DNA from: Echinarachnius parma
Lineage: Eukaryota; Echinodermata; Echinoidea; Clypeasteroida; Echinarachniidae
Assembly: GCA_037951105.1 (NCBI GenBank)
Contig: JBAMJV010002994.1
Location: 1-64,000 of the forward strand
Direction: 5' to 3'
Length of the DNA stretch: 64,000 bases
Numbering within the stretch: position 1 is the first letter of the stretch; every line of letters starts with the position of its first letter. The notes under the pieces are model-generated. The model did no database searches. It saw only the letters and a list, made by a program, of their open reading frames with translations, and was not told where the DNA came from. Both the position numbers and the translations under genes were made by a program. This document shows positions 21,501-24,500 of the stretch, in pieces.

Positions 21501-24500
21501 AACCATGGTCTACAGCTATGGAGCGCGCCATTTGTAAACTAAAGGAGAAAAATTGTACATGTATTGGGCCATTCTTGGTCACGTGTGTGACCCAAAACAT
21601 GACAAATTTGGAAATGGGATGCTTATATTTCAGTAAGTATGAGACTATAATGATTTTTACTTCATATGTGACTTGAATATGTTGTAGTCTTTCAAACTTA
21701 ACACAAAAGATTTTATAAGGATTACGTAACTCAATGTCAGAGGTCAAATGGCATGGGTCACGTGTGTGACTTCGCACGGAGCGCTTTTTTCATAACTAAA
21801 TTTCATTTGGAAAATTCTTTAAAATATGAATAGCTATAATGTTCATCTTATTACCAGAGAAGTACTATACATTTGTAAGTACAACAATAGCAATGAATGA
21901 GAATTATATCAAACCGTTGTTTTTTATAGTACTTAATTATGTGGCAATGTCTGGTCACGTGTGTGACATTTTGGGGTGGTCACGTGTGTGACATGTACAA
22001 TATGAATGGAAAAATGGGAATTTTATAATATCGGGTTTAGAAAAGAATGAAAGGTTGAATTTTTACAAAGTTGGTATCAACCTGTACAGGAAAGTGAGAA
22101 GAATGAGCTTGCTAATTATCCTTTTGATATCTTGATTATTTTCTGAATTATGATTATTAGAAAAATATTGAAATATGTAAATTTATGCAAATGAGTAAAA
22201 AAGTTTCATTTTAAACTTCAAATCATGTATTTCATGAAACTTTACACATGGATCATTCCAAAAATGGAACAAAACTACAGAAAAATAAAACTTCAATTTT
22301 TCCGAAAAAGTTTCACTTTTCAAAGAATGGCCCTATTACTTCTAATGTTGAAGCTACACATTTGCTAAAGACACCAAAAAAATGTCTGTTCTCAGCTGGG
22401 GAATTTTGTTTGGTGCTGCTGGTGAGCAAGCACCAATGCAACGACCATATTATTAGAAATTAGCAAATGTTATCTCTGCTTTTTTATTTGTCTAAAAGCA
22501 GCCCATATAGATGTAGACCATGGTTTAAACCGTGGTCTACATAAACCTCCTTTGTAAATTCCATCTAATGGATTAAATAACGAATGCTGGCACAAATGTG
22601 ATACATTGCTCAAACTCCACAATGGCAGGCACAGACATGAGGATTTCTTAATGCAGTCAGGCCATGTTAAAGCAGACTCTCATTTTATCCAACACATTAC
22701 AGAAGTGCTCGAGTAAAGCATTCCTCTTTACTTTCTCATCCATGATATCTAGAATGTTCAGGAACACAGTTATATATTAAAGTCAAACAGCCTTTGAAAT
22801 ATGCTAGGCAACACAGAAGAAATTAGAAACGTGTTTAAACAGTTGAGTAGTGTAATCCGGTCTCTTCCTTCACTTGATTCTGAAATTAAAATAGCTAGAG
22901 TTCATATGTAGTACACCAAATTCCCGAAAAAATAATGGGGTTAAAGAAAAAGAATATAAACATAAGGAATTTCAAATTGCAATTAGGCCACACTAAGAAT
23001 GAACATTGATTGCAGTCACACCATATGATAAGAACAGACATTAACTTATTGCAGCAAACTATGAAACGAACAGACATTAACTTATTGCAGTCAAACAATG
23101 CTAATAACAGACATTGATATTGCAGTCAAACCACGCTTAGTACAGACATTAATGTATTGCATTGAAACCACAATGAAGCAGACACTCATTATACCTAGCA
23201 CATGACACAGGTGCTCTGGCAAATCCTTTCTCTTAGCCTTCACAGTCTTGATACCTAGACACCAAGAAAATGCACAACAAAATCTTGATAGATTATGGTT
23301 CTAAAATTGTTTTCATCAAAGAATGAAATAACTTGAGATAACCCGAACTGTTCTACTACAAACATCTTCATTAATTTGTTTTATAGCACTTTTTTCACTT
23401 TGCTCTCTTACTATTCCCATTTTTATTCATCCCTTTTTTCCTCTTTTGTTCCTTTTTTGTTCGTGTTTAATTATTGACTTCTCCAATTTACACTAAACAA
23501 ATTTTCACCCCAACTCCTTAGTCTGTGTTCACCATCTGTCAATGTATTCAAATCAACACAAAGTCTGATTGAATCAAACTTACAGACCACCACTCTGGAG
23601 CTGTATATAATTTAGGGAAACTTAAGTCAAAAGATGAGATGCCTTTCTACAACAACCCACAGCTTAATCCCCACTTATTTTGTGACAACAATTCATCTTT
23701 TTCAACCAAACTTGATTCTTGATTCTTGGATGGATGATTTGCACAGAACCCCACAAGAGTCCCAGTAAGGCGTGCATATGCACAGCATTGCGTGCCTCGA
23801 GTCTGGTGCTAAAAATATCAAGTAAATGAACTGGATACATAATCTAATAATCAATGAGTGCTGCTAGTGTGGGCATGTCTCCCAGATTACATTCTACAAA
23901 ACATTCTACAAAACATTCTCACCTTTGTAGATGTCATTGAGTTCGTTCTGTCTACGTTGCTGCCTCTTGATGAATCCTGCCTTGCCAGATGACTTGGGTT
24001 TGGGAGCAACCACTCGGGGCTGGGTTACAAAGTCTGGCAGAGAAGCCTCAAGCTCAAGCAAACCTAGTCACAAAGGTCAAATAAATCTCACATGAAACAT
24101 ACCAAATAACAGGGCTAGACGATAGCAAGTACAAAAATTGATATCGCAAGTAATTTCATAAATGGTCTAGTTTGTCTTCCTGATTGGGCAACTAAATAAT
24201 TGTTCAACTATAAGAGAATAATTCCATTTCTTACATGTAAATCTCATCTACAAGTGCGGAGGCGAGTATATTTTAGGTTGGGTCAATTCAAATTTGAAAA
24301 TGCATGATATTACTTGCCCAAATGGACCAGTACAGAATACAATTAGTGTGGAGGCTTGAACATAGCATTGTTACATACAGAAAGCATTTGCCAGTGCATG
24401 GTGGCATGCTTATCGGCCAATGAGCAACTGCTGCGTGTGACGCACAGTGTGAAGATCAGAGTTGATGTACTGCTTGTAGAAATGTTATATGAGCCTGATG

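Follow-up and report, generated by a model that had tools for sequence, protein, structure and literature searches.

Diverged subterminal motifs at conserved positions in a group of DNA transposons from Echinarachnius parma

The ends of phage Mu and of Tn7 carry several transposase sites at unequal distances, with the terminal site at the cut, and form an asymmetric complex. Elements of the hAT type have 8-bp TSDs and a different transposase from the one described below, and PIF/Harbinger elements have a 3-bp TSD. Excerpts of the papers on two hAT elements describe that the Herves transposase binds short subterminal repeats at asymmetric ends, with a motif that varies between family members (PMC3143072), and that short subterminal repeats are also bound by the Hermes transposase (PMC10368747). 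Sola elements are described, in similar excerpts, as having 4-bp TSDs, which are AT-rich in the Sola2 cases, short TIRs, a DDD-type transposase and a size of a few kb (PMC3627910, PMC10741241), and a mean length of 5,445 bp is given for Sola1 (PMC10294476). Within the excerpts of the literature searched, no description of lineage-specific subterminal motif arrays in Sola was found, nor was the present system, with motif arrays at Sola or MITE ends, described there; the literature that matched the TIR words had, among the matches listed, titles unrelated to transposons.

The window analysed here, a stretch of 64,000 nucleotides of E. parma (contig JBAMJV010002994.1), contains two short elements, E1 and E2, which are non-autonomous members of one DNA-transposon group with a 4-bp TSD and a TIR core near GGGCAATTCCA. 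Very probably, the motifs repeated at their ends are the binding sites of cognate transposases, having diverged together with the transposase while their geometry was kept, and E1 and E2 are transposase-dependent deletion derivatives. The group resembles Mu and Tn7 in having multiple unequally spaced sites at two different ends, although those systems are bacterial and use other transposases and site sequences. It resembles hAT elements (Herves, Ac, Tol2, Hermes) in its subterminal motif (transposase-bound in hAT), its asymmetric ends and a motif that differs by member. However, the Herves sites lie, according to the excerpt, within 100 bp of the ends, whereas here they reach up to 400-560 bp inward on a plan fixed across lineages, and the TSDs resolved here are 4 bp long and not 8 bp. 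The 4-bp TSDs also differ from the 3 bp of PIF/Harbinger, and no Pfam transposase family was found above cut-off. As in MITEs and Ds-type deletion derivatives, E1 and E2 are short, occur in many copies without a transposase gene, show TIRs with a fixed 4-bp TSD at many loci, and have kept the ends of a larger family while losing the interior; unlike these, they retain an array of four sites, at just one of the two ends.

E1 occupies positions 21566..22333 on the plus strand (768 bp), with the array end on the left, and is enclosed by the TSD TATT (21562..21565 and 22334..22337), read from the window sequence and matched in kind by the 4-bp TSDs of other E1 copies. Its termini are GGGCCATTCTT...AAGAATGGCCC, with the left TIR GGGCCATTCTT at 21566..21576 (plus) and the right TIR, which has no motif array beside it, at 22323..22333 (minus). 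The motif GTCACGTGTGTGAC stands on the plus strand 12 bp from the end (21578..21591), again at 21757..21770, and as a doublet at 21954..21967 and 21979..21992. E2 occupies 46864..47655 on the plus strand (792 bp), as a short form without the far-end array, between the TSDs ATAT at 46860..46863 and 47656..47659. Its termini are GGGCAACTCCA...TGGAATTGCCC, with the left TIR GGGCAACTCCA at 46864..46874 (plus) and the right TIR at 47645..47655, which reads GGGCAATTCCA on the minus strand, and its motif GTCACGGACATTAC lies on the plus strand 13 bp from the end (46877..46890), at 47057..47070, and as a doublet at 47246..47259 and 47270..47283. Neither element contains a stop-to-stop ORF of 110 aa. 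E1 is flanked by inverted arms (AAAGGAGGTTTATGT and neighbours) at 21477-21513 and ~22515-22562, so that it was apparently inserted into another short inverted-repeat element.

The first-pass annotation of this DNA had reported four copies of one motif in each element, all pointing the same way, with start-to-start spacings of 179/197/25 in E1 and 180/189/24 in E2 and with copy 1 adjoining the terminal repeat in both. All of these observations were reproduced, each 15-mer being present exactly four times, on the plus strand. Its lengths of 775 and 802 bp, however, had included TSD bases, and the boundaries were moved by 1-4 bases to give the 768 and 792 bp used here. The claim that the two interiors do not align was almost correct: once the motifs were taken out, a score at least as high as the real one was reached by 14 of 300 resampled sequences, the corresponding figures being 14/300 before copy 1, 82/300 between copies 1 and 2, and 4/300 between copies 2 and 3. 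To speak of two different TIR elements was too strong, since GGGCCATTCTT and GGGCAA(C/T)TCCA are related ends. No further match to the 14-base core of either motif occurs in the window at up to one mismatch, and at up to three mismatches the 15-mers gave a single extra window match, for E2 only, at 13802. If copies 2 and 3 are placed at random in order, the agreement in spacing between E1 and E2 has p ~0.0009 for this pair alone.

Across the genome (1.2 Gb, 14,790 contigs), searched with the same pattern read backwards as control, the E1 15-mer gave 5,977 matches (2,908 + 3,069) and the E2 15-mer 5,348 (2,742 + 2,606), against one control match each (0 + 1 in both cases). The first 100 matches listed per motif form 29 clusters for E1 and 29 for E2, and 97 of the 100 E1 matches and 96 of the 100 E2 matches listed lie in clusters of at least two, so that the motifs were not found, among these matches, to be common outside such elements. 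Among the E1 matches listed, 13 of the 29 clusters have spacings of exactly 179/197/25 and 2 further ones 180/197/25, 3 are single matches, the last of them cut short where the list ends, and the remaining 11 differ, chiefly through the second interval (143 to 221) or a missing copy. Among the E2 matches listed, 20 of the 29 clusters showed one or more intervals of 178-181, 187-190 or 23-25 bp, and 4 were single matches. The constant spacing anticipated genome-wide was thus mostly observed, except that the second E1 interval differs between subfamilies. A left-end pattern, GGGCNANTCN{2,6}GTCACG, gave 2,521 matches for both lineages together against 59 in the control, and the 100 matches listed comprised 70 of E1 type, 29 of E2 type and 1 other. 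The E1 ends are also consistent, as had been supposed: the right end was located at 8 of the 9 places examined, with a 4-bp TSD at all 8 (AATG, TAAT, TAAA, TGAT, CTAT, TATA, ATTA, ATTA), and a 4-bp TSD was also present at one long E2 copy (L047).

Longer E2 copies (E2b, of ~1.65 kb, as well as L047 and L059) carry a second array near the opposite end, as a rule two copies in inverted arrangement, spaced 25 bp, with an outward copy 152 bp on, and the gap between the two arrays was 510-705 bp in five clusters among the matches listed. For E1, a genome search for a far-end array gave 0 matches with the inverted pattern and 40 with the direct pattern, and the 22 of these with sequence listed all resemble shortened array intervals. 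The loci L053-L057, with one motif match listed each, were old or incomplete copies in which no transposase frame was recognised by eye; in one of them (L054, contig C204), long repeats, several frames of which encode short peptide blocks in alternation, share the same 8 kb with a solo E2 end. Exact E1 motifs were also encountered in 14 viral contigs, as a single copy each and without an array, and were dropped.

A doublet search with GTCACG(A/C)N5AC gave 21 matches against 5 in the control, all of them one motif, GTCACGCGAGTCAC, or slight variants of it, which define a third lineage, E3; 8 of the 21 lie within one tandem array on contig C5531. An E3 element on contig C7241 (L066 + L072) is 5,248 bp long, with TSD ATCT and TIR CACCAATTCCATGG / CATCGATTCCATGG, and carries the motif three times near one end and four times near the other. 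Between these arrays lie open frames of 282 and of 484 aa that overlap one another and, read from the sequence, would be one gene broken by a frame change relative to its relatives. The two pieces, searched separately, had no Pfam match, and the 484-aa piece, the only one tested there, had no NCBIfam match. At least one motif copy is mutated in each of the E3 copies L063, L064, L067, L069 and L070.

With the 484-aa piece as query, 70 genome matches were obtained, some of which had an open frame 700-922 aa long, and 12 transposase loci were examined, namely the E3 locus and 11 further ones. The longer relatives, of 5.25-5.53 kb, contain a transposase-like gene, which is frame-broken in one and has a stop-to-stop open frame in three (L074, 707 aa; L075, 793 aa; L076, 727 aa). 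Each of these three genes is flanked by its own repeated word, and E3, L074, L075 and L076 each enclose a transposase-like gene between own-motif arrays, in accordance with the earlier proposal that the motif co-diverges with a putative binding protein. TIRs with a 4-bp TSD were resolved in 6 of the 9 longer elements examined (ATCT in E3 A, ATAT in E3 B, ACAT in L074, TGCT in L075, ATAT in L076 and ATGT in L077), the ends of L075 and L077 being TIR-like candidates chosen by eye while other candidates scored equal or higher; the search by TIR and TSD found no end for L079, L080 and L082. L074 and L076 have GGGCAATTCCA at both ends, as at the right end of E2, and L074, L075 and L076 have GGGCAATTCC at both ends. 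None of the transposase genes in the loci and windows examined lay between E1 or E2 motifs, and these motifs were absent at up to two mismatches from the 12 transposase loci and from 6 windows near further matches, with the sole exception of a stray match within the L075 open frame.

When motif starts are counted 0-based from the array end, with E2 shifted by one base to its true end, the copies begin at 12/191/388/413 in E1, 13/193/382/406 in E2, 13/192/381/404 in E2b, 13/190/378/399 in E3, 13/193/390/404 in L074 (with an extra doublet at 617/631), 13/194/389/410 in L075 (with a two-mismatch match at 741) and 13/181/369/383/405 in L076. In three lineages found by a separate search described below, they begin at 13/194/384/407 (F1, L091), 13/190/385/399 (F2, L092) and 13/190/380 (F3, L093). 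Several of these copies carry one mismatch, as the terminal copy does in L074, L075 and L076. Counted from the other end, the starts are 357/524/549 in E3, 360/527/547/561 in L074, 359/514/530/549 in L075, 365/519/541/554 in L076 (the copy at 519 having two mismatches) and 378/535 in E2b, with copies in mixed orientation in L074, L075, L076 and E2b. The common plan comprises copies at ~13, 190, 383 and 405 bp from the array end and at ~360 and 520-560 bp from the other, with far-end ranges of 357-365, 514-527 and 530-561 in E3, L074, L075 and L076. Over the nine lineages, copy 2 falls at 181-194 and copy 3 at 369-390, ranges so narrow that they were attained in 0 of 200,000 random ordered placements, a figure computed as if the lineages were independent, although in fact they are related.

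Eleven elements from nine lineages were searched over their first 430 bp, on both strands and with all nine motifs at up to one mismatch, and each element contained its own motif three to five times and no other. The nine motifs, of ~14 bp (GTCACGTGTGTGAC, GTCACGGACATTAC, GTGACTCGCGTGAC, GTAACACCGGGAC, GTAACGGAATTACA, GTTACGGACGTAC, GTGACAGACGGGAC, GTAACTGACGTTAC, GTAACTCGCGTTAC), read inward from the array end, have only the form GTNAC...AC in common. The F2 and F3 motifs are distinguished by 2 positions only and match one another at two mismatches, so F2 and F3 may be one lineage and the count of about nine is partly a choice. A pattern combining the TIR with the first copy, GGGCAATTCCNNNRTNACN7AC, gave 471 matches against 0 in the control, with several new motifs, and from these an out-of-sample set of six new elements (L091-L096) was taken, the prediction that the first motif of each would be repeated at the positions of the plan having been fixed beforehand. 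Counting L093, three of the six behaved as predicted and three failed. L091 and L092 carry further copies of their own motif where predicted, one of those in L091 having a mismatch, and L093 carries further copies of its own at 190 and 380, without the second copy of the doublet in the 434 bp examined. Among the failures, L094, with one copy, resembles a short deletion derivative, in L095 the first copy is damaged and the F3 motif stands at 173 and 361 (the latter with two mismatches), and L096 is degenerate; the first-copy motif of each of these three occurs once among the 100 matches listed.

This diversity bears on the alternative that the motifs bind a host factor, such as a transcription factor or a chromatin protein, which the elements exploit, and not a transposase. 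The E1 motif does contain CACGTG, an E-box-like word, and the intervals of 180-190 bp are close to the nucleosome repeat length. However, a host factor common to all lineages would be expected to keep the motif constant, contrary to the approximately nine motifs that occupy the same positions in one genome and are confined to their lineages at up to one mismatch, and four relatives enclose a transposase-like gene together with their own motif. Binding of a host factor is thus regarded as improbable.

The shared geometry could also have been merely inherited from the ancestor of E1 and E2, with too little time for drift, in which case the sites would need no function. The related TIRs make common descent likely, but the flanks between the sites barely align between E1 and E2, and the comparison of two E3 copies, A and B, points in the same direction. 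Between the motifs, 561 of 844 positions are identical (66%; 587 of 881 in an alternative alignment), whereas all 98 motif columns are identical, which at 66% has p ~4e-18; the far-end doublet belonged to the search pattern by which A and B had been found, and without its 28 columns p is ~4e-13. Despite alignment gaps, six of the seven intervals are unchanged and one is off by 1 bp, a constancy reached in 0.0009 of trials with random gap directions, where gap placement at 66% identity is itself uncertain. Motif and spacing are thus conserved against diverged flanks, and an explanation by recent inheritance has very little to recommend it. That the copies were homogenised by gene conversion or minisatellite-like turnover, their look of binding sites being accidental, is hardly credible, for although a 25-bp doublet has expanded in tandem in one E3 copy (C5531), L074 has an extra doublet and L081 shows diverged tandem units with a GTTAC word, copies 1-3 stand ~190 bp apart in mutually different flanks, their positions recur in nine lineages, and a genuine minisatellite whose core is similar (C12473) has quite another appearance. 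The latter had been a candidate for a fourth doublet motif (GTCACGTAGTTTAC) and was rejected as a minisatellite. In the expanded E3 copy (L069, C5531:5800-7500), the doublet has grown to ~ten 25-bp tandem units, a possible route from a binding array to a minisatellite.

If the motifs are cognate-transposase sites, each would be recognised through a binding domain of the protein of its lineage, and such proteins would mobilise E1 and E2, which, internally deleted, would depend on transposase supplied elsewhere in the group; the longer relatives would be the autonomous members. The bound sites would be the terminal copy next to the TIR, those ~190 and 383 bp further in, and the neighbour that makes up the doublet; full elements have, in addition, a second array of three or four sites, ~360-560 bp inward of their other end. 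With several subunits of the transposase bound to these sites, an asymmetric paired-end complex would form, leading to cutting at the TIRs, and the spacing would be needed for assembly of this complex. As lineages split, transposase and motif would change together, and the positions of the sites would stay under selection imposed by the unchanged shape of the protein complex. Since E1 and the short E2 keep the first array only, a single array and two TIRs would have sufficed if they moved in this form. Additionally, GTNAC is self-reverse-complementary in form, so the site might be read either way, which would agree with the copies of the far-end array being oriented in both directions. The interval of ~180-190 bp is near-nucleosomal, which is suggestive only. 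A more far-reaching reading, which seems doubtful, is that about nine mutually orthogonal lineages use their own 14-bp addresses (GTNAC...AC) on a fixed scaffold, with the complex assembled on chromatin and its sites in successive linkers, one nucleosome repeat apart; were it true, nature would have supplied in this group a library of matched protein-DNA specificities.

It has long been asked how a transposase can acquire a new DNA specificity and still keep its ends. The approximately nine lineages found here keep the end plan and differ in address. Three of them have open frames of 707-793 aa, so that a small number of binding assays would test co-divergence directly, and candidate orthogonal transposase/end pairs become available. 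Membership in a common group also explains why E1 and E2, two short elements of the same window whose interiors are unlike, have one architecture, and the diagnostic ends allow the group to be annotated without a Pfam model.

Alignment of ten ORFs revealed 24 invariant columns, which include D379 in the context DF(A/S/G)EN, D459 in (S/T)D(G/S) and D500 in HGK(G/S)xxDG, as well as E382 and E391. As we read the alignment, the three aspartates could plausibly be a D-D-D triad, the second and third being separated by 40 residues. Nothing above cut-off and a few weak matches below it were obtained for the nine longer ORFs in Pfam, and a profile of the transposase had no significant match in PDB (best E 0.26). 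Among themselves, L074, L075 and L076 share 34-36% protein identity; with the E3 piece they share 29-31%, and with the remaining six 19-26%. The group has 4-bp TSDs, TIRs of ~14 bp, elements of 5.25-5.53 kb and three invariant D, and since TSD length, TIR length, element size and the putative D triad agree with the descriptions of Sola, membership in Sola is likely, a placement made from these descriptions. However, the TSDs found here go beyond the AWWT stated, in the excerpt available, for Sola2 of Dictyostelium fasciculatum. The elements are probably new lineages of this known superfamily, with an end architecture that appears lineage-coded and position-locked.

A more distant relative, L077 (C9557), has the TIR GGCGAATTCTCC and open frames of 843 aa in at least 10 places with near-equal scores; it is 99.4% identical over 1,945 bp to L089 (C10038) of the same family, so that this family moved recently. 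Copies of its own motif stand at intervals of 369-418 bp at one end, a different geometry, and the kept geometry therefore belongs to the closer group only. L079 has the word GTTACGGGTGTTAC at 159/21 spacing near its GGGCAATTCCACGA end, and L080 a repeated word of the GTAACATACGTTAC type. The repeats of L078 were a 99-bp minisatellite, with no array among the repeats listed, L082-L084 contained various repeated words, none recognisable as an array, and the windows beside further transposase matches at L085-L088 and L090 had no visible array. In L081 (C8225), where no matching TIR, of the GGGC type, was found, TTGTTACCGC occurs at 731, 900 and 1102 (169/202 bp) inside the diverged tandem units, perhaps a related array grown by duplication.

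Elsewhere in the window, positions 33682-34410 hold an open frame that encodes two domains of the CARD type (Pfam PF00619, PF16739). The 1,083-bp stretch 35445-36527 is repeated at 36769-37851, 1,324 bp further on, with 99.9% identity, as either a recent tandem duplication or an assembly artefact, and both copies contain the same 165-aa open frame.
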